From an uncultured Thermomicrobiaceae bacterium (GTDB lineage Bacteria; Chloroflexota; Chloroflexia; Thermomicrobiales; Thermomicrobiaceae): a stretch of DNA of 41,767 bases. The notes under the pieces are model-generated. The model was not told the DNA's origin. It was given only the letters and a program-made list of their open reading frames with translations, and did not search any database. Shown here in pieces: positions 1,125 to 38,716 of this stretch; the first letter of the stretch is position 1; each line of letters begins with the position of its first letter. The position numbers and the translations under genes were made by a program. The DNA is taken from assembly GCA_938082375.1 (NCBI GenBank), contig CALKCJ010000049.1, forward strand, positions 1-41,767, given 5' to 3'.

Positions 1125-1669
1125 ATGAGCGAGAAGAATACGCGAGCACCCACAGTCAGTACCTTCGCGATCCTCGCGATTTGTTGGCTCTTACGGTGTG
1201 GTGTGTTGTCGATCCAATGCTATTCTCGGCGCCCTCGCGGTTCACGTTTGTCGGCTGGGGTCTGATTTTGATAGCAGTGCTTGGTTGGAGGCTTGCGGAT
1301 CGGTGTGTTTGGGTGCGGTGGCTCATCGGTGTTTTGTGGTGTTCCCTCAGCCTTGGAACAGTCACGCTTGCCTAGGCCGATGAGTTACCCGAAGTATCCG
1401 TGCTCTCCGTGGTGCTCTCGGTCGTGTGGATCCTGCTTGGGGGATTGGTTTTCATTGGTCACAAAAGGGTTTTCTGGCTTGCGGTGATCTGGGCAACACT
1501 TTCTCTGGGTGGCTCGGTAACGGGGCTTCTTATGGGCGACCCTGAACAACAGGCGCCCGCGACCATTAGGTCGTTGCCGCATGCTGCCGTTCTGTTCGGT
1601 TTGTTGTACTGTCGGCGATCGCATTTTCGGACTTCGGCAGCTCAACCCTCTGAGTCCCCGAACCAGTAG
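1125..1669 (+). pseudogene. Broken gene for a small multi-pass membrane protein
   Basis: An ATG at 1125 opens a reading frame (MSEKNTRAPTVS...) that runs into a hydrophobic stretch and then loses sense near 1190. The next frame carries on with membrane-like sequence (FVGWGLILIAVLGW, WLIGVLWCSLSLG) to a TAG at 1373-1375. Past that TAG the same frame continues hydrophobic (VVLSVVWILLGGLVFIG, FWLAVIWATLSLGG) to a stop at 1669. Read through, this would be a protein of about 180 residues with four to six membrane spans, broken by one frameshift and one nonsense codon. The bases here are visibly less GC-rich than the rest of the window, which may indicate transfer. The alternative is two separate small membrane-protein genes, the second starting at GTG 1400. 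I do not recognise the family. Confidence 0.4.
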
Positions 1670-1737
1670 TCGAGCGGGATGCGAGGGCATCGAGGAACTC
1701 TCGGCCGGTGTCCACCTCGAGCGAAGGAGGTCCCTTG

Positions 1738-2154
1738 TTGCTGGTAGGGATCCTTGGGCTCGGTCCGATCGATCACATGGTGAATCGTCGCCTAGATCAG
1801 GCAGCCATCAGGGTCACCGCTGCCTGGAGGGCGGCGTGTGCAGCGCTCGAAGCCCAACTCTCTGCCGGTCGTCCTGAGACGTCCGCGCCGGTGTCGGATT
1901 GGACTCCCCCTAGCGAGATTGATTGCGGAGCCGGGACAGTACCGGTGCGACGATTTGCCGCTCCTAGGGTACTTGGCCGGGAGGCCAGCGGGTGGGTTTA
2001 CGCAGCGGAACGTATCGTCGAGTTCCAGAAAGCACCCCCTCGGTTCGAACTCCGCTGGCTCACACCACAGAGAGGTCCGGGTTTGGCACGTTCTAGTAGT
2101 GACCTTCGCAGTGGTCGCGAGCGTGCCGAGCCACTCGTTCGATATGAGCCGTAA
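1738..2154 (+). CDS. Possible unknown gene with strong ribosome binding site
   Basis: A textbook Shine-Dalgarno site (AAGGAGGT at 1724-1731) lies 6 nt before an in-frame TTG at 1738; another TTG sits at 1735. The first 45 residues look protein-like: a short hydrophobic start (LLVGILGLGP) and then an amphipathic Arg/Ala-rich helix (NRRLDQAAIRVTAAWRA). The rest, from about residue 50, is Pro/Arg/Ser-rich with no family resemblance and may be out of frame, so this could be a truncated relic. No function can be assigned. Confidence 0.25.
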   Translation: MLVGILGLGPIDHMVNRRLDQAAIRVTAAWRAACAALEAQLSAGRPETSAPVSDWTPPSEIDCGAGTVPVRRFAAPRVLGREASGWVYAAERIVEFQKAPPRFELRWLTPQRGPGLARSSSDLRSGRERAEPLVRYEP

Positions 2155-2261
2155 TCCGCTGAGACTGGGGAGTCTCCGGTACACTGCACTCGGGGTGCCA
2201 GCGGCGACGAGCGTTCCGTCTCAGATCGGATCCAGCTGCGGTATGGACACAGCCGGTTGCC

Positions 2262-2750
2262 TTGTATCCCTGGACGAGCCTCCTGGTGCTGGCCTTCGCG
2301 GCTTTCGGCGGTGAGCTGCTCGGTCGCGGGTTCCCGGCTAGGGCCTGGCCGGTCTTCCTCGCCCTGCTCCTCTTGAGCCTTGCCGACCTCGCGCTCAACG
2401 GGCTGCCGTCCCCGCTCCCGCCCGCGTCGACGCCCAGTCCACCGCTGCCGGCTGCGCGGCTCTACGGTAACCTCGTCATCCTCTGACCCAATGGCGAGCG
2501 ATTCATGCTGGGCGCACTGGACCTGCTCGTCTGCGCGGCCCTCGCCGTGCACCGGCGTCGCCGGGACGCTTCACCCGCCGCTGCGTTGCTCCCTGGCCCA
2601 GCAGCGATGGTGCTGGCGAGGATCTTCGTCCGCGTCAGCGAGCGGTAGCACTGGTTCTGCTCCTCCTGCTCGGTTGGCTCCTGAGCGACGCCATCAACAG
2701 GGTCCTCGCCTCGCGCACGTTGACAAGTTTTGTGGCGATATCGGTGCCTG
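2262..2750 (+). pseudogene. Remnant of a Leu-rich membrane protein gene
   Basis: From a TTG at 2262 one frame encodes two hydrophobic segments (LLVLAFAAFGGELLG, PVFLALLLLSLADLAL) and a Pro-rich linker, then hits TGA at 2484-2486. The same frame resumes (LGALDLLVCAALAV) to a TAG at 2646-2648. A different frame then gives another membrane segment (VALVLLLLLGWLLSDAIN). Three hydrophobic stretches in collinear order, interrupted by a stop and a frame change, look like one decayed gene. Two or three tiny genes are the alternative. The family is not recognised. Confidence 0.3.
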
Positions 2751-2777
2751 CCGTCCGGCGGCGCCGCTGCGCTGCAT

Positions 2778-2806
2778 GGCACAGAACGGCCTGGGAGTGC
2801 TATACT
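2778..2806 (+). promoter_or_regulatory. Putative promoter for the tRNA-Ser pair
   Basis: TATACT at 2801-2806 matches the -10 consensus well. A weak -35 (GGCACA, 2778-2783) lies 17 nt upstream. The predicted start is about 45 nt before the first tRNA. The -35 box is poor, so this is tentative. Confidence 0.4.
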
Positions 2807-2859
2807 GTGCCTGCGGGCCTGACGGCGACAGCCTCGCGAGTATGTCCCTGTCGGTGCGC

Positions 2860-2943
2860 GGAGAGGTGGCCGAGTGGTTGAAGGCGGCTGTCTTGAAAAC
2901 AGCAGGGCGAGGAGCCCCGGGGGTTCGAATCCCTCCCTCTCCG
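2860..2943 (+). tRNA. tRNA-Ser (anticodon UGA)
   Basis: The acceptor stem GGAGAGG pairs with CCTCTCC at 2936-2942, followed by discriminator G2943. The D-arm has the usual GGCCGAGTGGTTGAAGG form of class II tRNAs. The anticodon stem GCTGT/ACAGC (2887-2891/2899-2903) holds loop CTTGAAA with anticodon TGA at 2894-2896. A long variable arm precedes the T-loop TTCGAAT. CCA is not encoded. The tRNA reads UCA and, by wobble, other UCN serine codons. Confidence 0.95.
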
Positions 2944-2960
2944 CCGCAGATGCCCAGCAC

Positions 2961-3053
2961 GGGAAGGTGCCTGAGAGGTCGAAAGGGGTCGCCTGCTAAG
3001 CGATTGGGGCTGGCGTAAACCGGCCCCCGAGGGTTCGAATCCCTCCCTTCCCG
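2961..3053 (+). tRNA. tRNA-Ser (anticodon GCU)
   Basis: The acceptor stem GGGAAGG pairs with CCTTCCC at 3046-3052, discriminator G3053. The anticodon stem GTCGC/GCGAT encloses CTGCTAA with anticodon GCT at 2995-2997. A long class II variable arm and T-loop TTCGAAT follow. CCA is not encoded. It lies 17 nt after tRNA-Ser(UGA), so both are probably co-transcribed. It reads AGC and AGU serine codons. Confidence 0.95.
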
Positions 3054-3061
3054 CCCATGGG

Positions 3062-3088
3062 GTCAACCTGGGGTCAAACGGTCGTCAA
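3062..3088 (+). repeat. Three GTCAA repeats at exact 11-bp spacing
   Basis: GTCAA begins at 3062, 3073 and 3084, each about one helical turn apart, starting 9 nt after tRNA-Ser(GCU). Phased short repeats beside a tRNA 3' end can be arm-type integrase sites, but no integrase is nearby. ACGGT/ACCGT also forms a small hairpin across the last copy. Confidence 0.4.
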
Positions 3089-3090
3089 AC

Positions 3091-3272
3091 CGTGGTTCGA
3101 CTAAGACAACGCTCCCGCTCGGGTGAGCCAGCGGGGACATCCGTTATCGCACATCGGGCTGCAGCCGAGCCACTGTCCCCCCGGGTCTAAGCCTCAGCCA
3201 GTCCCTGCGTGAACACTTGCACGCCTCGGCTTCCGGCGCAGGCCAGGTGGGCGAGGCGCAGGGAAGCCCGGC
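3091..3272. other. Intergenic stretch with no recognised gene
   Basis: The stretch between the tRNA-associated repeats and the next minus-strand reading frame has no convincing coding sequence on either strand. I looked for a signal-recognition-particle RNA or RNase P RNA core and saw none. Confidence 0.4.
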
Positions 3273-3410
3273 TCACAGTGCCAAGAGAGCAAACAGGCTG
3301 ACGGCTGGCGGCAGGGTTCCGATTGGTGCACCACGTCTGGTGGTGAGAGGCCCGCCTCGCGCCAGGACGAAGCCCAGAGCGCTCAGGTTAGGCCGCAGCC
3401 CGCTAATCAC
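3273..3410 (-). CDS. Possible 45-residue protein downstream of the thioredoxin-fold gene
   Basis: A GTG at 3410-3408 lies 21 nt after the stop of the upstream minus-strand gene and is preceded by an AAAGGAAGG ribosome-binding-like site overlapping that gene's end. The product would be about 45 residues, with Leu/Ala-rich ends (NLSALGFVLA, AVSLFALLAL) and a polar middle. No family is recognised. It may be a small co-translated membrane peptide or chance. Confidence 0.25.
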   Translation of the reverse strand: MISGLRPNLSALGFVLARGGPLTTRRGAPIGTLPPAVSLFALLAL

Positions 3411-3431
3411 CAGCCGGCGCCTTCCTTTCGC

Positions 3432-3965
3432 CTACCGGCTACGGGGCGCTTGCGTGCGATCGACCCAGCACTCCGAGCACTCGTACGACACGAACTCGAG
3501 CCAGCTCCGGATCTCCTCTGGCTCCAGGAGCCGGTGCGCATGGTCGGCAAGCTCGACCTCGTACACTGTACCCACGCGGTCGGCGATGACCACGCCGGCC
3601 AACGGGCTACCATCGTTACCGACTAGCCCAAACCACTCGTGGATCTCGGTGTTGTCCGCCACCGCCACCGGAAACGGCAGCGCCGCCACGTCGCCCAGCA
3701 GCACTTCCGTCCCGAGCGGCAGCACCGCCACGACCTCCGCTGCCTCGGCGCGGATCGCCTCGATCCGCCCGGCGATCGCCCGCAGGTAGTCCAGGCATAC
3801 CGCGCAGGGCCACTGGTGGGTGAAGACCAGCGCCAGGTTGCGCCGCAGGTAATAGCGACGCGTGCTGACTGTGCCCTTACCCGCGGCCAGCGCAGTGAAA
3901 TCCGGGATCCGGTCGCCGCGTGCGACCGGTGGTCGCGTTCCTGTGCCGATCGGCTTGCTGCTCAC
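3432..3965 (-). CDS. Peroxiredoxin/thioredoxin-fold (AhpC-TSA-like) protein
   Basis: The 177-residue product has the layout of a redoxin: a short N-terminal strand with GDRIPDFTA (about residues 18-25), a central beta-strand LALVFTH and then a cysteine pair PCAVC (C54, C57) at the start of the next helix, where peroxiredoxins and thioredoxins carry the active-site thiol. A second pair (C163, C166) sits near the C-terminus and could resolve a disulfide or bind metal. There is no signal peptide, so it probably acts in the cytosol in peroxide reduction or disulfide exchange. The start is GTG at 3965 behind a GAGGAG site. The substrate cannot be told from sequence. The next gene upstream (GIDE-domain protein) is 40 nt away on the same strand. 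Confidence 0.7.
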   Translation of the reverse strand: MSSKPIGTGTRPPVARGDRIPDFTALAAGKGTVSTRRYYLRRNLALVFTHQWPCAVCLDYLRAIAGRIEAIRAEAAEVVAVLPLGTEVLLGDVAALPFPVAVADNTEIHEWFGLVGNDGSPLAGVVIADRVGTVYEVELADHAHRLLEPEEIRSWLEFVSYECSECWVDRTQAPRSR

Positions 3966-4005
3966 AGCCTGCTCCTCGCCTCTGGGTATGTCCCGGTTGC
4001 TCGTG

Positions 4006-4770
4006 TCAAAACAAGGATGCCAGCCACTGAACCACCCCGACGAGGAGTGTGCCAGCGGCTATGAGGAAGCCAGCGACAGCGCCGGCCAGGAGCAGGGACG
4101 ACTTCTGACGCAGATCCCTGGACAATTCTTCTTCCGAGCGAGAACTGATGAGGTAGCGGCGTAGCTGGCTCCCCTCGGGCGGCGGCCCGACGCTCCCGTC
4201 GTCTTGCAGCACGCCAAGCACATACGCCGGGTGGTCGACCAGGACGGCGTGCTCCACCTTCCGGTACCCGAGCGTGCGGCTGGCTCCAGTGCCCAACGCT
4301 ACCGTTATCCCTCCGATTGTCACCGTACCGGCTCCCTCCGCGGAGGGTTCGAACCGGTCGACGAGCTTCCTGGCGTCAATGTCCGCCCCGAACGGGTTGA
4401 CTGTGACCCGGCCGGTGGCGTCTTCCAGCTCGAAGGGCACACGCTGCTCGTTCTGCGAGACGACCTCCGAGCCCCGCTGCCGCGTGGTGCCTCCCTTGCT
4501 GGTGCGCCTCGTCTCCTCGTACTCGCGCGTCGTCACCGATCGAACGTACACGCAGGGGAGGCCAGCGATCTCGCTGGTCAGCGGTGTCGCACAACGAACA
4601 ATCCCTTTCAGTTCGACGAGTTCGCCCGGCAGGCGGTCGCCCAATTCGGCGATCGTCGAGGTCGGAACGAGCCGTACGAGGCTAAACTTGTGCTGCACCT
4701 TCCGGTAGCCGATGGCACAGAGGATGCCGGTACCCAGCGAGACCAAGAAAACGAACGCAACGAGTCCCAT
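4006..4770 (-). CDS. GIDE-domain membrane protein (bacterial homologue of the MULAN/GIDE module)
   Basis: The 254-residue product has one N-terminal membrane helix (residues 2-22) and one near the C-terminus (about 225-247). Between them is a soluble region with features of the GIDE/BAM domain: an early GxLVELKGIVR-like strand, a cysteine-containing LPCVYVRS strand, a basic segment, then FELEDATGRVTVNPFGAD, with two YRKV stretches. In eukaryotes this domain sits in a mitochondrial membrane E3 ligase next to a RING; here there is no RING. The domain is known in bacteria and archaea but its role there is unclear. The start ATG at 4770 has GAGAG 8-9 nt upstream. Family recognition is from motif pattern. 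Confidence 0.65.
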   Translation of the reverse strand: MGLVAFVFLVSLGTGILCAIGYRKVQHKFSLVRLVPTSTIAELGDRLPGELVELKGIVRCATPLTSEIAGLPCVYVRSVTTREYEETRRTSKGGTTRQRGSEVVSQNEQRVPFELEDATGRVTVNPFGADIDARKLVDRFEPSAEGAGTVTIGGITVALGTGASRTLGYRKVEHAVLVDHPAYVLGVLQDDGSVGPPPEGSQLRRYLISSRSEEELSRDLRQKSSLLLAGAVAGFLIAAGTLLVGVVQWLASLF

Positions 4771-4864
4771 GCGGTCGATCTCTCATCGCTCTGCACCGGA
4801 CCTACCTGACCGAGGTTCGGCAGCCTCAGCCACTCGCGAGCGTACGGGGTGACAGCCGCCCGCG

Positions 4865-7603
4865 TCAACTGGTGGCGCTGCGGATGACCGCGCGGATCTG
4901 GCTCCAGTGCTGCGCCTCCCGGGCAATACGGAGCGCGGCGTCGCGCTCGACCGGCGGGCCGAAGAGCTCGCCAGTCCCTAGCGTACAGCCGAGCCGGGTC
5001 AGCGGGACGAACTGCTCGAACACGTCGACCCCTTGGGCCAACGAGGTAAGGCCGAGATCCCGAGCGAGCCCAATCTGCGCGCGGGCAACGACGGACGCGG
5101 GGGAGTCGGTCCCGAACAGAGTGGTCAGCTCGCGGGCGATCGTGACACCGCTGACCTTGAGCTCAATGAACGAGAAGAGCGAGGTGCAGCCCCCGAAGCC
5201 CTCTACGAAGACCGGGCTACCCAGTGCCCGGAGCTGCCAAATCGTCTCCCGGCTTTCCTCGATGCCGAAGCTGAGGGCCGGTTCTGGCAGCCAGAAGCCC
5301 AACGACCCCGCCGGTAACCGCGTCTCGTCGAGGAGGCGAGCTAGGTCTTCGACTAGTCGGGGTTGTATGGTCTCGACGCCCGTAAGGTGGAGCAGGATGA
5401 TCAGCGACCCTGGCGTCTGCCGACTGGCCTCAGTCAGCCAACCGGCGGCTTCCCGGAGCGCCCACCGATCGATGGTGTCGACCAGTCCAGCCTCTTGGGC
5501 TACACTGATGACCTCGCCGACCGGTGCATATCCTCGATCCGGATGTGGCCAGTAGGGCACAGCCTCGAACCCGTAGAGTCGACCTGAACGGAACTCCACC
5601 ACCGGCCGGTAGCGCAAAGTCAGCTGATCGCTCTCGATTGCTTCGCGCAGCCGGGCGGCCAAGAGCGACCGCGTCGACGCTTCTTGGTACATCCACGGCT
5701 CAAAGACGACTGCCCGGTCGCGCCCCAGGGCCTTGGCCCGGTAGAGAGCGATGTCGGCGTCCCGCAGCAGGCGCGTGCCGTCGATCTCCTCTGGCGTGCT
5801 CACGGTGATGCCGATGCTGCAGCGGATCTCTACGACCTGCCCGTCGATTCGGATCGGGCGCCCCAGTTCCCGGGAGATCCGCTCGGCCATCACCAGCGCT
5901 GCGTGCTCGCCGGCACCGCGCGCGAGGACGACGAACTCATCACCGCCCAGCCGGGCGACCAGGTCGTCTGAACGCACGATGCGCAGGAGCCGGCACCCGA
6001 CTTCTTTGAGGAGCGTGTCGCCGGCCGGATGGCCGAGGGTGTCGTTCACGTGCTTGAAGCCGTCCAGGTCGAGCAGGAGCAGTGCCAGGGGCCGAGGAGA
6101 GCGCTGCGCTGCGGAACCGGCTAGCGCTTCGACCTCCTCGAAGAAGTGCGCCCGGTTTGGTAGGCCGGTCAGTGGATCGTAGAGGGCGAGCTGGCGAAGT
6201 CGCTCCTCCATCTGCTGGCGCTCGGTCACGTCGAGGGCGACCCCGATCACGCCGATCACCTGCCCGGACGGATCACGGAGAGGCTCCAGCCGCATCGAAT
6301 AGCTCCGGTCGGTGAAGCCGAACTCGAACTCTTGCGACTCGCCGTCGAGGGCACGGCGGTAGCGCTCGAGCAAAAACGCCTGGTGGTCACCGTCTTTCAC
6401 GATGTCGGCGACTGATTTCCCGATGAGCGTCTGGCTGTTCATTCCCAGGACTCTCAGTCCGGCCCCGCTGGCCGACGTGAAACGGAGATCTCGATCGGTT
6501 GTCCACAGGATCGCTGGTACCTGCTCGAGGACGAGCTGTAAGCGAGCCTCACGCTCAGCCAGCAGCTCTTGCACACGGCGGCGCTGCTCGACCTCCTCCT
6601 CGAGCTGTCGATTTGTGCCCCGAATCTGCGCAGCCGCCGTCGTGACCCGTGCAGTCTGTCGCATGGCGAGGGCAAGAAGGGAAGCCGTGATGATCCCAAA
6701 GGCGAGTGTCAGTTCAGGCAAGGGCGAAGACCTCCGGAGTACGGTGCCAGGTCTCTGCCTAGCAAACTCCTCATCGGCCCACAGCGTGCCAGCGATGGCG
6801 ATGGCGACCCAGGCGCCGAGCAGCAGCGTGACCGGGGCGAGCCAGCGCGGCCAGGGATATCCAGCCAGGCGCTCTGCGCGCCAGGCGAGAAGCAGGAGAC
6901 TGAGCCCCCCGGCGGTGGCTCCGAGGAAGCCAAAGATGAGCGTGCGGTCGTGGACGAGCTCCCGCACCAGTACCTGTTGTTCAGGAATGCTCAGGAGCAT
7001 GCCAGCGAAGCTCCCGCCGATGAACCAGCCGGGGAAGTCGAGAACGAGCGCGAGGAGCAGGTTCGCCGAGATGAAGGTGACAACTGCGCCGATGAGACAG
7101 AGGAGTCCCAACCGGAGCGGGCGTGTCGTCCGCTCCTCGGCGACCAGCAGGCCGAGACCCGCGAGGGCGATCACAACCCGAGACTCAAGGGAGGGTAGCC
7201 AGAGCCAGGCGAGGGTGAACGTTGCCGTCGAGCCACTGGTCAGGTGCCAGAGCGATGCGAGCACGCTCTCGCTGCCGAGGAGGGTGACGAGGAAAGCGAT
7301 TCGCCGAGCAGCTCGCCAGTAGCCGAGGAGCGCAGCGCCCATTCCCACGCCCCAGAGCGCGAGTCCAACGCCAGGCGGAGCCACGAACGACCAGCTAACA
7401 CCCGTGTACACGTCCGTAAGGCGGTGGGCCAGCAGCATGAGGCCGCTAGCGAACGTCAGCAGCGCGAGAGATAGGCCCAGTACCAGGGAGACGCTCTGCC
7501 AGCCACCCCTGCCAGGCCTGATGAGATGTCCCGTTCTGAAGCTGACCTGTGAAACCACGCTGCCCCGCCGTGACGCTCGATGTCCGCTTACGGCGAACAA
7601 CAC
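4865..7603 (-). CDS. Membrane diguanylate cyclase: PAS + GGDEF + degenerate EAL
   Basis: The 912-residue protein has six to eight membrane spans within about residues 35-320, a coiled-coil linker (325-355), a PAS domain (355-465), a GGDEF domain and a C-terminal EAL-like domain. The cyclase core is intact: GGDEF at about 553-557, with an RxxD inhibitory site (RSDD, 544-547) five residues before it. The EAL domain keeps its fold signature but not its chemistry: EAL reads EAV (680-682), the DDFG metal motif reads VEGFG (800-804), the KID motif reads KVSG, AEGVE reads AQGVD and QGY is lost. It should therefore make cyclic di-GMP and probably only bind it at the EAL end. The start is uncertain: TTG at 7603 or an internal GTG about 45 nt later. 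Confidence 0.9.
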   Translation of the reverse strand: MLFAVSGHRASRRGSVVSQVSFRTGHLIRPGRGGWQSVSLVLGLSLALLTFASGLMLLAHRLTDVYTGVSWSFVAPPGVGLALWGVGMGAALLGYWRAARRIAFLVTLLGSESVLASLWHLTSGSTATFTLAWLWLPSLESRVVIALAGLGLLVAEERTTRPLRLGLLCLIGAVVTFISANLLLALVLDFPGWFIGGSFAGMLLSIPEQQVLVRELVHDRTLIFGFLGATAGGLSLLLLAWRAERLAGYPWPRWLAPVTLLLGAWVAIAIAGTLWADEEFARQRPGTVLRRSSPLPELTLAFGIITASLLALAMRQTARVTTAAAQIRGTNRQLEEEVEQRRRVQELLAEREARLQLVLEQVPAILWTTDRDLRFTSASGAGLRVLGMNSQTLIGKSVADIVKDGDHQAFLLERYRRALDGESQEFEFGFTDRSYSMRLEPLRDPSGQVIGVIGVALDVTERQQMEERLRQLALYDPLTGLPNRAHFFEEVEALAGSAAQRSPRPLALLLLDLDGFKHVNDTLGHPAGDTLLKEVGCRLLRIVRSDDLVARLGGDEFVVLARGAGEHAALVMAERISRELGRPIRIDGQVVEIRCSIGITVSTPEEIDGTRLLRDADIALYRAKALGRDRAVVFEPWMYQEASTRSLLAARLREAIESDQLTLRYRPVVEFRSGRLYGFEAVPYWPHPDRGYAPVGEVISVAQEAGLVDTIDRWALREAAGWLTEASRQTPGSLIILLHLTGVETIQPRLVEDLARLLDETRLPAGSLGFWLPEPALSFGIEESRETIWQLRALGSPVFVEGFGGCTSLFSFIELKVSGVTIARELTTLFGTDSPASVVARAQIGLARDLGLTSLAQGVDVFEQFVPLTRLGCTLGTGELFGPPVERDAALRIAREAQHWSQIRAVIRSATS

Positions 7604-7757
7604 GCTGCCCTAAGTAAGACTACGACCAAGTGGACGAAACGCTGAAGTCCGGTCGATGGCCAGGTAGTCCTCTTTGGTTGAGGAAACTCGGCCGACACGC
7701 GCGTCTCGCAGGGCGTACTCGTGAAATCGGGCGCAGCGATTCTGAAAGGGGATTCGG

Positions 7758-9998
7758 CTAGGGGATCCCGGCCTGGATGGCGGCATCGATGACCTGGCGG
7801 GCGATCGGCGCGGCGGTGCGGGAGCCTTCGCCGCCGTGCTCGACCATTACCACCAGTGCCAGCCGGGCGCCGTCGACTGGGCTAAAGGCAGTGAACCAGG
7901 CGTGCGGCTGTTCCTGGCCCGACTCAGCCGTGCCCGTCTTGCCAGCCACCGGCTGCGTCACGCCCTGGAAGGCGGCGAAGGCGGTGCCGTTGGGAGCGGA
8001 GGTCACGTCGTGCAGGGCCGCCCGGATTGCTCCCTGGATCTCCGGGGAGAGGGGGAGCGTGCCACGCGCCCTCGGCTGGGCAGTGTAGAGCTTGGTGCCG
8101 TCGATCGCCACCACCTCCTGCACCAGATACGGCTGCCAGAGCGTGCCTCCGTTGGCCAGTGCTGCGTACGCGTCGACCACCTGGAGCGGCGTGGCGAGAA
8201 AGAAGCCCTGACCGATCGCGAGGTTGACCGCGTCGCCGCGAGCCCAGTAGTCGCCGTGGGTGCGGAGCTTCCACTCCGGGTCGGGCACGATCCCAGCCAC
8301 CTCCGGTACTTCCGGGATGCCAGTTTCCGAGCCGAAGCCGAAGGCGCGGGCCATCTGGGGCAGGAGGTTCGGCTCGCGGCTGTCGAGCTCGGCCCCGATC
8401 TGGAAGAAGACGGTGTTACAGGACTGTACCAGCGCGTTGTGCAGGCTCAGTCTCCCCTGCCCGTGTGGGCTCCAGTCGCGCCAGACCTGCGGGCTCCCCG
8501 GCAGGGAGAAGGTCGCTGGGCAGTCGAAGGCGGACTGTGCCGTTAGCCCGAGGTGCTGCATCCCGGCGGCCATGGTGACCACCTTGAAGGTCGAGCCGAC
8601 CGGGTAGCCGACCTGGGTGGCCCGGTTCAGGAGCGGTCGCCGCTGCTCGTCGTTGAGCGCCGCCCAGTCCTCCAGGCTCAGGCCGAGGATGAACTGGTTG
8701 GGGTCGAAGCTCGGGTTGCTGACCATCGCCAGGATGGCGCCGCTGTTGGGGTCGATGACGACGATGCTCCCGGTTCGGTCGCCGAGCGCCTGGTAGGCGG
8801 CCATCTGGAGGTCGAGGTCGATAGTGGTGACCACGTCGGCTGCTGGCTGGCTGGGCACTTCGGCCAGCACCTTGCGCTCCTGCCCATTAGGACCGACGAT
8901 GACCAGCCGGCCGCCGCGCTTGCCACGCAGGTACTGCTCACCCCAGGCCTCGATCCCCGCGCGGCCGATCCGGTCGCCCGGCTCGTAGCCGCGCTCGGCG
9001 AGCTGCTGGAGCTCGTCGCCGGTGACCTCAGTTAGGTAGCCAGTCACGTGCGCCGCCGCTGGCCCGGCCGGATAGGCCCGCTCCGGCCACTGGCGGACGA
9101 CCACTCCGGGAATGCCGGCCAGCTCCTGGAGGAGGGCCGGGTCGAGCGGGTCGGGCAGGCTCTTGATCGGCATGAACCAGTCCGGCTGGCCGCCCTGGTA
9201 GCGCTGCTTAATCACCTCCGGGGGCAACCGGAGGAGCTGGCTCAGCTTGTCGAGCAGAGTCTGCTCATCCTGGATCTGGCCAGGAATGACGCCCACCTTG
9301 TTGACGGTGCCCAGGTGGGCCAGCGGCCGGCCTTTACGGTCGAGGATGCGGCCTCGCTGGGGAACCGACGGGATCCAGCGGACGAAGCCGTCGGCCAGGT
9401 CAGCGACGATCACCGAGGGCGTCCAGTCAATCCGGTAGCCCCCGTCCTCTTCCACGACTGGGATGGCGTTGTCTTCAGTCAGTGTGCCGACCCGATCAGT
9501 CTGGCGCACGACGTGGACAGGGAGACGAGTCACCGGTGCCGGTGCCTGGCCGATCGTCACCTCGATCGAGCGCTGGCCCATCTCCTGAGCGATGCCCTCG
9601 TAGCGGGCGACGAAGTCTTTCTTGCTGATGTGCGCCTTCGAGGCTTCGGAGAGCAGCTCGTACATGCCGGCGTAGTCGCCGCGCATCCAGCGTTCGACGA
9701 AAGCGTCGACGACGTCGCGCGGCGTCCGGTAGCTCGGCGTCGGGGGAGCAGTCGCGGAGGCGCCGGAGGTCACCCCGGGCTCAGCGGACGGCTGGTTTGC
9801 CTGGCCGAGGCGGTCAGCAAGCAGGAAGAAGCCGATAGAGAGGACGGCTAGCACCAGAGTGCCGGTGAGCAGGGTGGAGGCCGTGTTACGTTGCGGCGGC
9901 CGCTGGGAATAAGGAGAACGATACCCTGGCACCGGCGGGCGTCTCCTATCTCTGAGCCGCTCCGATCCCGGGAGCACAGCAGTCCTCGGTTGGGGCAT
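7758..9998 (-). CDS. Class B penicillin-binding protein (transpeptidase) with MecA-type N-terminal domain
   Basis: Starting from ATG 9998 the protein has 746 residues: a basic Pro-rich cytoplasmic tail, one membrane anchor (TLVLAVLSIGFFLLA), an NTF2-like MecA_N domain (begins PRDVVDAFVERW), a PBP dimerisation region (RGRILDRKGRPLA onward) and the transpeptidase domain. All three catalytic motifs are present: SxxK (S469-TF-K472), SxN (S526-C-N528) and KTG (687-689). It cross-links peptidoglycan outside the membrane and would bind beta-lactams. The MecA_N module is known from PBP2a and related elongation PBPs. An in-frame start at 10085 would add 29 residues, but neither start has a clear Shine-Dalgarno site. 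It lies 101 nt downstream of prs. Confidence 0.93.
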   Translation of the reverse strand: MPQPRTAVLPGSERLRDRRRPPVPGYRSPYSQRPPQRNTASTLLTGTLVLAVLSIGFFLLADRLGQANQPSAEPGVTSGASATAPPTPSYRTPRDVVDAFVERWMRGDYAGMYELLSEASKAHISKKDFVARYEGIAQEMGQRSIEVTIGQAPAPVTRLPVHVVRQTDRVGTLTEDNAIPVVEEDGGYRIDWTPSVIVADLADGFVRWIPSVPQRGRILDRKGRPLAHLGTVNKVGVIPGQIQDEQTLLDKLSQLLRLPPEVIKQRYQGGQPDWFMPIKSLPDPLDPALLQELAGIPGVVVRQWPERAYPAGPAAAHVTGYLTEVTGDELQQLAERGYEPGDRIGRAGIEAWGEQYLRGKRGGRLVIVGPNGQERKVLAEVPSQPAADVVTTIDLDLQMAAYQALGDRTGSIVVIDPNSGAILAMVSNPSFDPNQFILGLSLEDWAALNDEQRRPLLNRATQVGYPVGSTFKVVTMAAGMQHLGLTAQSAFDCPATFSLPGSPQVWRDWSPHGQGRLSLHNALVQSCNTVFFQIGAELDSREPNLLPQMARAFGFGSETGIPEVPEVAGIVPDPEWKLRTHGDYWARGDAVNLAIGQGFFLATPLQVVDAYAALANGGTLWQPYLVQEVVAIDGTKLYTAQPRARGTLPLSPEIQGAIRAALHDVTSAPNGTAFAAFQGVTQPVAGKTGTAESGQEQPHAWFTAFSPVDGARLALVVMVEHGGEGSRTAAPIARQVIDAAIQAGIP

Positions 9999-36490: not shown

Positions 36491-37345
36491 TTACGCCGAA
36501 CGACCTCGCACGGCGCGGCCCTGCGCCGGTTCCGGCGCCGGCTGAAGGGGCACCCACGGTTGCCAGGTGAAGCGTTGGCGGTAACGGTCGAGCACGGCGA
36601 TCACCGGGTGGCCGAGCAACAGGACGAGCGCGGCGTTCCCCAGGGCGCGCGTCCCGTCGAAGGCCAGGGAGGTGGTGAGATAGAAGCGCGCGTACGTCCG
36701 TACCGTTTCGCTGAGCGACATGCCCGGATGCCAGTAGAGCCCGACCGGTTGGTCGATCCCCGGCGCGACGAAGGGCCAGAACCAGAGGTTCATCAGGGCG
36801 CCGAAGAGGAAGCCCCAGGCTGCCCCGAACGCGGCCAGCAGCGCCACCTCCCACCGGCTATGCAGGCGCGGCAGCCAGCCGGCGGTCATTCCCACCCAGC
36901 CGGCCGCCAGCATCTGGTACGGGAGCCAGGGGCCGATCCCACCGGTGATCAGGGCTGAGAACAGGAGTGTGAGCGAGCCCATCAAGAAACCGAATTCGGC
37001 TCCGTAGCAGTAGCCGGTCAGGATGATCAGCAGGAAGATCGGCGAGGCACCCAGCAGGCTGGGGATCAGCCGCAGCGCGGCATCGAAGGCCACCAGCACG
37101 CCAAGCAGCGCGACGAGGCGCGAGCGCGAAGGGCCCGACGCCCACCCCTGAAGCTCCGAGAGGAGCAAGGCAAGGCAAGCAGCCGCGAGCGCCGCAAAGA
37201 GCAGCGGGATAACGACGCCCTCTCGGTTGTCACTTCCCTGCCTGTGGAAGAGCGAGAGGAGAAACGGGTAGACAAAGGCAACCGCTCCTAGCGTGCTCGC
37301 GACCGCCAGGACGATCGAGCTGGTGCGCTGTGATCTCCTGCTCAT
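36491..37345 (-). CDS. ECF-transporter S component, probably for cobalamin
   Basis: The 284-residue protein has about six to eight membrane spans (VLAVASTLGAVAFVYPFLLS, IFLLIILTGYCYGAEFGFLMGSLTLLFSALI and others). The middle resembles ECF S components such as CbrT, with AFDAALRLIPSLLGASPIF, GGIGPWLPYQMLAAGWVGM and GFLFGALMNLWFWPF. Its ATG overlaps the 3' end of the BtuF-like gene by 4 nt, so the two are translationally coupled. That partner makes vitamin B12 or a related corrinoid the likely substrate. The shared EcfA and EcfT subunits are not in the window, as is usual for group II ECF systems. Confidence 0.75.
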   Translation of the reverse strand: MSRRSQRTSSIVLAVASTLGAVAFVYPFLLSLFHRQGSDNREGVVIPLLFAALAAACLALLLSELQGWASGPSRSRLVALLGVLVAFDAALRLIPSLLGASPIFLLIILTGYCYGAEFGFLMGSLTLLFSALITGGIGPWLPYQMLAAGWVGMTAGWLPRLHSRWEVALLAAFGAAWGFLFGALMNLWFWPFVAPGIDQPVGLYWHPGMSLSETVRTYARFYLTTSLAFDGTRALGNAALVLLLGHPVIAVLDRYRQRFTWQPWVPLQPAPEPAQGRAVRGRSA

Positions 37346-38277
37346 CGCACTCCCTCAGGGGCCAGCCAGCGAACTGGCGCGACGCTTTGGGGCGGGCCGA
37401 CGGGAGCAATCGCCGCCGGATGTAGGATGGCTGCGAGCAGCTCCAGGCCAGTTATCAGCCGTGGCCCGGGTCGGCTGAAGTAGCTGCTGGCATCGACGGC
37501 GTAGACTCGGCCGCTCGCCGCTGCTGGCGTCGCTGGCAGGCCGGGTACCCGATTCAACTCGGTCGCCACCGCGCGAGCGCCAGCGAGGTCGTAGCCGCAC
37601 GGCATCAGCACTAGTACCTCGGGCCAGGCAGCCACGACATCGTCCCAAGTGACCGTAAACGACGGAGCGCCCGCCTGGCCCAGGAGGTCGCGACCTCCCG
37701 CCAGCTCGACCATCTCCGGTACCCAGTGGCCTGCGACCATCGGCGGATCGAGCCATTCGAGGCAGACGACGCCGGGAGCCTCTCGCTCCACCTCAAGCCG
37801 TTGCCGCACGTGCTCGATCCGGTGCCGCAAGCTGGCGACGACGGCCGCAGCGGAGGCACGCCGGCCCGTGTGCTCACCGATCAGCCGGATCGAGTCGAGC
37901 ACATCGAGCAGCGTGTGGGGCTCCACGGAGAGGACTTCAGGCCGCTGGGGAAAGGCACTCGTGATCTGCACCACGTCCTCGTAGGAGACGGCGCAGACCG
38001 GGCAGAGTGCTTGGGTGAGGATGAGGTGTGGGCGGAGCTGGGCCAGGCGTTCGGTATCGAGCTGGTAGAGTGGCCGGCCGGATCGCACGAGCTCGCGGAC
38101 GGCGCGGTCAATCTCGGCGTGGCTCAAGCCGGGTGGCAGAACACTGCGGGTAATCTTCGGCTTGACACGCACCGGCGGCGGGTAATCGCACTCGTGAGTG
38201 ACCGCGATCAGCTCGTCGTCCAAACCCAGAGCACAGCATATCTCAGTGAGACTCGGCAGGAGCGAGACGATACGCAT
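37342..38277 (-). CDS. BtuF-like cobalamin-binding protein without signal peptide
   Basis: The 311-residue product starts MRIVSLLPSLTEICCALG, the first strand of the BtuF/FhuD fold, and contains VTHECDYPP, LILTQALCPVCAVSYEDV and WDDVVAAWPEVLVLMPCGYDL, all typical of BtuF-type cobalamin-binding family proteins. There is no signal peptide or lipobox, so it should be cytosolic, unlike classical BtuF. Coupled to an ECF S component, it may take up or store corrinoid on the inner side of the membrane. No cobalamin riboswitch was seen in the 58 nt between it and the HxlR gene upstream. Confidence 0.82.
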   Translation of the reverse strand: MRIVSLLPSLTEICCALGLDDELIAVTHECDYPPPVRVKPKITRSVLPPGLSHAEIDRAVRELVRSGRPLYQLDTERLAQLRPHLILTQALCPVCAVSYEDVVQITSAFPQRPEVLSVEPHTLLDVLDSIRLIGEHTGRRASAAAVVASLRHRIEHVRQRLEVEREAPGVVCLEWLDPPMVAGHWVPEMVELAGGRDLLGQAGAPSFTVTWDDVVAAWPEVLVLMPCGYDLAGARAVATELNRVPGLPATPAAASGRVYAVDASSYFSRPGPRLITGLELLAAILHPAAIAPVGPPQSVAPVRWLAPEGVR

Positions 38278-38335: not shown

Positions 38336-38716
38336 TCACTCGCCAGGCTTGGACGGCTGCGCGCTGTTCCCGGCCTCGAGTGGCGCTTCAGGCATGGTGG
38401 CCAACCAAGTCTCGCCGAACTGCCTCAGTTGCTCGACCAGCGGCAGCGCGGCCAGGCCCATCTCAGTCAGCGAGTATTCGACCCGCGGTGGGATCTCGGC
38501 GAATTGACGGCGGGTCACCATCCCCGCGCTCTCGAGATGACGCAAGCGACTGGAGAGCACCGCCGGGCTCATGCCGGTCGAGTGGAGCAGCTCCTGGAAA
38601 CGACGGCTTCCGTGGCTGAGGTCGCGCAGCAGCAGCAGGGTCCAGTGATCCCCGAGGAGCTGGGCGGCGCGGGCGATCGGGCACGCCTCACGTTGTGCTG
38701 TGTCGCTACGTCGCAT
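38336..38716 (-). CDS. HxlR-family winged-helix regulator
   Basis: ATG 38716 gives 126 residues, the normal size. It has the family pattern CPIARAAQLLGDHWTLLLLRDL with the N-terminal cysteine, then FQELLHSTGMSPAVLSSRLRHLESAGMV (recognition helix) and PPRVEYSLTEMGLAALPL (wing). HxlR proteins often sense electrophiles or redox state through that cysteine. The gene is divergent from yceI, with 116 bp between the two starts, so it may regulate both. It is followed, 58 nt on, by the BtuF-like gene on the same strand. Confidence 0.93.
   Translation of the reverse strand: MRRSDTAQREACPIARAAQLLGDHWTLLLLRDLSHGSRRFQELLHSTGMSPAVLSSRLRHLESAGMVTRRQFAEIPPRVEYSLTEMGLAALPLVEQLRQFGETWLATMPEAPLEAGNSAQPSKPGE

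Follow-up and report, generated by a model that had tools for sequence, protein, structure and literature searches.

We propose that the minus-strand gene pair at positions 36,491 to 38,277 of the stretch analysed here (the window, 41,767 nucleotides from an uncultured Thermomicrobiaceae bacterium) encodes the S component of a split cobalamin ECF importer together with a cytosolic corrinoid handler that is not tied to any one importer, and that the two are translationally coupled within one bacterial family. We give this reading, which is drawn from sequence comparison, a probability of about 0.62. The BtuF-like gene (37342..38277, minus strand, 311 amino acids) comes first, and its stop codon is joined to the start codon of the S gene (36491..37345, minus strand, 284 amino acids) in an ATGA overlap (37342..37345, minus strand). 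An earlier note had described the pair in these terms, and its coordinates and its account of the overlap hold, both products scoring above their Pfam cut-offs and the overlap being legible in the sequence itself. That note went on to suggest that incoming corrinoid is captured on the inside of the membrane, as a division of labour peculiar to ECF uptake. From this interpretation the missing export signal, the corrinoid context of both genes and the conserved coupling are retained, whereas the ECF-specific role is not.

By fold the BtuF-like protein belongs with the class III binding proteins, and it matches PF01497 at 51.6 bits (cut-off 27.5). Its first residues, MRIVSLLPS, already form the first strand of the fold, and the open reading frame of 316 codons leaves at most five codons above the start, so that a signal peptide does not fit. 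A contig scan found 339 relatives, and in 75 of the 80 best loci the position homologous to Met1 is occupied by a start codon. On open reading frame length and start-codon homology, with leaders judged on hydropathy, the protein thus lacks the signal peptide and extracytoplasmic location of a BtuF, and the earlier statement that it has no export signal is borne out by this inspection of possible upstream starts. It also falls far below the cut-off of the NCBIfam BtuF equivalog (26.4 of 234 bits). The AlphaFold2 model is confident (pLDDT 93.3, pTM 0.91), and structure comparison places heme-, iron-chelate- and B12-binding proteins of class III nearest to it. The heme binder 2r79 (Z 25.5) and BtuF 1n2z (Z 23.5) illustrate that heme binders are at least as close to the model as BtuF, which is tied or slightly lower. 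Conceivably, then, the cytosolic ligand of the protein might be heme or an iron chelate, its corrinoid-gene neighbourhood being incidental; PF01497, too, spans several ligands. We nevertheless hold this to be improbable, given that a BtuF gives the best alignment over the GHW and RPxPR stretches and that riboswitches and corrinoid genes accompany the family in several phyla. The best PDB profile match is the BtuF of Vibrio cholerae (E 3e-27).

Four cysteines are nearly invariant in the family alignment, which comprises 121 rows with redundant ones retained. Cys30 (codon 38188..38190) is a cysteine in 117 of the 121 rows, Cys92 and Cys95, the first and second cysteines of a CxxC motif (codons 38002..38004 and 37993..37995), in 120 and 119, and Cys227 (codon 37597..37599) in 117, with one further row gapped; all four codons lie on the minus strand. 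The exported BtuF paralogues encoded in 12 BtuFCD operons of this family present the opposite picture, with a hydrophobic leader in every case and a mature part that is free of cysteine in 11 of the 12. This difference bears on the idea that the BtuF-like protein is exported independently of a classical signal and works outside the cell as an ordinary BtuF does. Its fold is indeed that of an extracytoplasmic binding protein, but a sequence that opens directly with the first strand, the recurrence of that start across the loci and the four conserved cysteines, which set it apart from the exported paralogues of the same operons, make such export very improbable. Across the same 12 operons, mean pairwise identity is 0.74 for the cytosolic BtuF-like protein and 0.61 for the exported BtuF, next to 0.69 for BtuD and 0.80 for BtuC. 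The stronger conservation of the cytosolic protein relative to its exported paralogue would suggest that it does more than scavenge.

The BtuF-like gene is preceded on the same strand, at a distance of 58 bases, by a gene for an HxlR-type regulator (38336..38716, minus strand; PF01638, 79.4 bits). Among 10 related loci, six have a gene for an HxlR-type homologue as the immediate upstream neighbour of the BtuF-like gene, and a seventh has one at a distance of 0.8 kb on that side. In the window the two genes possibly share a transcript. A promoter search of the pair returned one promoter-like site, on the opposite strand, and a terminator search one terminator-like site on the minus strand within the S gene, which is the level expected by chance.

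What surrounds the family elsewhere? Among the 80 best loci, the BtuF-like gene is followed by genes for an exported BtuF, BtuD and BtuC in 12, all in records named Dadabacteria, Thermodesulfobacteriales, Thermodesulfobacteriota or Deltaproteobacteria. A cobalamin riboswitch is present in all four of those operons that have enough upstream sequence, and wherever the sequence reaches far enough, genes for a TonB receptor and one more secreted protein lie upstream. Taken over all 80 loci, a cobalamin riboswitch lies in the stretch around the gene in 10, nine times on the BtuF-like strand (L069, L080, L090, L093, L104, L107, L111, L125 and L128) and once on the opposite one (L078); in L104 it is downstream of the gene. 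None was found in the stretches around the other 70. Cobalamin biosynthesis genes are neighbours as well, with CobQ-type, CbiB, CobT and CobS genes preceding the BtuF-like gene in L084 and a CobQ-type gene following it in L104. In Chloroflexota the copies are mostly lone genes, as seen in 40 loci that form part of those found in 98 of 251 genomes. On this distribution the BtuF-like proteins appear as a widespread family that is not specific to ECF systems.

Three of the riboswitch operons (L107, L111 and L128) join the BtuF-like gene to a gene for a DUF6580 membrane protein, which may itself be a corrinoid transporter, as suggested by its position; no paper naming DUF6580 was found in the open-licence literature. 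An S-like fold for DUF6580 was considered and rejected, since profile comparison with the S component gave a probability of 3 percent and the sole PDB profile match, to CbrT, was not significant (E 8). L107 and L128 additionally carry, in the same operon, DUF71-type genes whose assignment was tested with Pfam. Two further observations concern riboswitches in relatives of the window's genome. In one of them a cobalamin riboswitch and a gene for an exported BtuF-like protein are closely preceded by a DUF71-type gene (PF01902; locus L315 of genome G010, 1656-2309, minus strand), and a strong cobalamin riboswitch (91.2 bits) stands above the genes for the large and small chains of ribonucleotide reductase in another genome (locus L320 of G008, 2344-6002, plus strand).

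The coupling to the S gene is confined more narrowly. An S homologue adjoins the BtuF-like gene in 10 of the 80 best loci, and these are the ten nearest relatives, in records named Thermomicrobiaceae, Thermomicrobium, Thermalbibacter, Sphaerobacter, Sphaerobacteraceae and bare bacteria HR26-HR28; the stretches around the other 70 gave no S match at E 1e-3. For whole genomes, we compared the window's own with 60 relatives, several of them incomplete, and compiled the presence of S, of the T component discussed below, of the BtuF-like protein (strong matches, E 1e-70 or better) and of riboswitch-linked BtuF by reading the search results genome by genome. The 21 genomes of the own family hold the BtuF-like gene in 17 cases, S in 16 and both in 16. 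In those 16 the two genes are always closely coupled: 12 pairs overlap by four bases (8 ATGA, 4 GTGA), two meet in TGATG, one overlaps by 17 bases, and in one the nearest S start lies one base past the stop. Such recurrence exceeds chance.

This conserved junction is an argument for an obligate partnership in which the BtuF-like protein would dock on the inner face of the S component as a necessary step of uptake, and a second instance of proximity comes from another family, where the genes are divergent and 37 bases apart (G030). Against it speaks how often the two genes occur apart. All 61 genomes together contain the BtuF-like gene in 20, S in 48 and both in 19, so that S is without the BtuF-like gene in 29 of the 61 (29 of the 48 that have S), and seven-eighths of the best BtuF-like loci (70 of 80) have no S neighbour; one member of the own family (G010) even has the BtuF-like gene and an exported, riboswitch-linked BtuF but no S match. 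By Fisher tests that ignore kinship, co-occurrence across the 61 genomes is weak for the BtuF-like gene and S (p 0.04) and not significant for the BtuF-like gene and T (p 0.13), which weighs against the reading that we prefer. We regard an ECF-specific role as rather unlikely. Phylogenetic co-occurrence, which the earlier note had named as a check, favours coupling wherever the family has both genes but not mutual dependence, and a division of labour special to ECF uptake is not borne out in that form, the more so as the BtuFCD operons place the same protein beside another importer. Since corrinoid genes accompany the family in several phyla and its associations extend beyond a single type of importer, the most economical role for it is that of a receiver or processor independent of the importer.

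The S protein matches PF12822 at 49.9 bits (cut-off 30.7), and its S-type core spans residues 70-260 approximately. The model, which shows two extra N-terminal helices, has the six-helix S fold over these residues, with FolT, PanT, ThiT and RibU leading the list of structural neighbours (VIA; Z 12.3 to 11); this likeness is to be read with the modest confidence of the model (pLDDT 71.4), a best Foldseek E value of 0.012 and Z scores below 13, which are modest for helical proteins. No sequence match to solved S components, CbrT included, was found in the PDB, the lone match being an unrelated entry (E 0.93). The model and CbrT (6fnp) nonetheless share a fold class (Z 8.6 over 147 residues, rmsd 3.6).

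How might the S component be linked to B12? The window's contig has no EcfT of the Pfam CbiQ type, and no cobalamin riboswitch reaches the gathering score in the window or in ten related loci (L049-L058), so the link must come from other contigs and other genomes. In the own genome, a riboflavin-type S with ATPases and T is encoded on contig C55, an S-like ABC_cobalt protein with ATPases, T and TenA on C38, a 229-residue membrane protein (an S component by reading, with no Pfam match) with T and two ATPases on C19, and a PF12822 S with T and ATPase on C18, which also carries CbiM with a CbiQ-type T gene. Contig C26 encodes a toroid protein, a cysteine-rich anchored protein, a T-like protein and a double ATPase (L013, that is C26:28000-42000, at 3937-9243, minus strand) and no recognisable S. 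By this inventory, the window's S is the sole S found without its own T and ATPase, and C26 is the sole T/ATPase cluster found without an S.

The C26 cluster lies under a match to the cobalamin riboswitch that, at 31.1 bits, narrowly misses the cut-off of 31.5; it is located about 9337-9468 on the minus strand and 2.8 kb upstream of T. The T protein itself is only weakly related to CbiQ (E 1.6e-4 in one search, no match at 1e-3 in another), and its counterpart in G024 scores just above the CbiQ cut-off (25.8 of 25 bits). T of this type is present in 43 of the 61 genomes; counted by eye, 40 of these have a cobalamin riboswitch upstream of T on its contig, at a distance of a few kb. The exceptions are G028, G050 and G024, whose cluster lies close to the start of its contig. 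Among 11 further clusters of this kind, the toroid gene, T and the ATPase occur in all, the cysteine-rich gene in 10 and S in one: in G024, toroid, cysteine-rich, T-ATPase and S genes form a single same-strand cluster in which S overlaps the end of a fused T-ATPase frame. S and T also go together across the 61 genomes (40 with both, 8 with S only, 3 with T only, 10 with neither; Fisher p 9e-5, ignoring kinship). Conversely, of the eight genomes with a riboswitch-linked classical BtuF (riboswitch confirmed for seven, FecCD tested in one), six lack S (p 7e-4) and seven lack T (p 5e-4), again ignoring kinship; G040 has S, T and riboswitch-linked BtuF, and G060 has S and riboswitch-linked BtuF. 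The own genome yields no CobS match, and it encodes a PduO-type adenosyltransferase and a B12-binding domain above the cut-off, from which it probably relies on B12 uptake. The window's S thus probably serves as the substrate subunit in an ECF importer under cobalamin control, the T and ATPase genes for which likely lie elsewhere in the genome.

In relatives outside the family, S stands by itself (L163, L165, L169, L171, L172, L173, L175 and L176). A divergent gene for a PucR-type regulator adjoins it in about 8 of 20 loci from other families, as assigned by reading; four of these regulators tested with Pfam gave PucR-type matches, partly under the cut-off. This neighbour has no obvious link to B12 and, along with the lack of sequence similarity to CbrT, might indicate that S carries another solute, for example a purine-type compound, and that it came to lie next to a gene for a B12-like protein by accident. 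The clustering of S with cobalamin-type T and ATPase genes in G024, its co-occurrence with T and its avoidance of riboswitch-linked BtuF all argue the other way, and leave this alternative a low probability.

The toroid and cysteine-rich proteins of C26 are apparently secreted and may form an external B12-binding pair. For the toroid protein, the matching models are those of squalene-cyclase and prenyltransferase toroids (alpha/alpha-toroid) and the PDB matches are cyclases; it may resemble intrinsic factor. A DUF4430 domain (the transcobalamin C-terminal type) in the cysteine-rich protein was considered and rejected, because none of 10 members tested with Pfam matched it; those 10 match no Pfam family, one weak cell-wall anchor motif aside, and no PDB match was convincing. 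If the two proteins do bind B12, the first contact with corrinoid may still take place outside the cell.

We envision the following scenario for split importer and cytosolic handler. S would be the substrate-binding subunit, with T and ATPase supplied from the other contig under the cobalamin riboswitch. The BtuF-like protein would take up the corrinoid just across the membrane, hold it or prepare it chemically, and hand it on to the adenosyltransferase and the B12 enzymes, serving whichever importer a species has; corrinoid binding and hand-over are what we infer for it, and direct contact with S may or may not be involved. The four cysteines and the conserved histidine and tryptophan residues are candidates for contacting the cobalt. 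In the window's family, translational coupling to the S gene would keep receiver and importer in fixed proportion. More tentatively, and at well below even odds, the family might be a thiol-based corrinoid-processing chaperone, that is, a binding protein relocated to the cytosol that gained four cysteines around its cleft and, on newly imported corrinoids, strips off or swaps the upper ligand of the cobalt ahead of the adenosyltransferase. Such a chaperone might, with the same reserve, correspond in function to CblC and operate in bacteria alongside ECF, BtuFCD and possibly DUF6580 importers.

Searches of the open-licence literature turned up no description of this cytosolic BtuF-like family, and the nearest described cases are ECF-CbrT, BtuM/BtuR and DUF71-B12. 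With BtuF of the BtuCDF systems of E. coli and V. cholerae the protein shares the class III fold and the GHW and RPxPR stretches, but it differs in lacking a signal peptide and, in the window, adjoining BtuCD genes and in having the four cysteines. ECF-CbrT of Lactobacillus delbrueckii contains the S component of a cobalamin ECF importer (PMC5997447), of the same fold class as the window's S but with no detectable sequence similarity; the additional N-terminal helices of the model, the T/ATPase cluster with secreted proteins and the coupled cytosolic BtuF-like protein set the present system apart. BtuM is an S-component-like cobalamin transporter that needs no ECF module and whose gene co-localises with the adenosyltransferase gene BtuR (PMC6072759). 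Both arrangements thus put an S-type gene beside a gene for cytosolic corrinoid handling (proposed, in our case), although the neighbour is an adenosyltransferase in one and a binding-protein fold in the other, and the thiol chemistry of BtuM on cobalamin offers a precedent for the conserved cysteines. Human CblC/MMACHC is described as a cytosolic cobalamin trafficking and decyanating protein (PMC6072759); by analogy it would act at the stage proposed here, between import and the adenosyltransferase or enzymes, but with a different fold and flavin-based chemistry. The DUF71-B12 subgroup is cytosolic and was predicted to serve B12 salvage from its clustering with BtuCDF (PMC3541065); it is an ATP-pyrophosphatase-type enzyme of unrelated fold, and DUF71-type genes share the two operons mentioned above.

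Corrinoid handling between importer and enzymes is a poorly described step in bacteria, and a widespread cytosolic BtuF-fold family with conserved cysteines, associated with at least two types of importer, is a candidate protein for it. The coupled S gene offers a simple system in which to test the role of the BtuF-like protein, while an S family without a sequence match to CbrT gains a probable role in B12 uptake. For the organism itself, the prediction is that its cobalamin ECF importer is encoded in two pieces. The overlap of the two genes, in turn, suggests that in some bacteria a dedicated cytosolic protein receives B12 after import.
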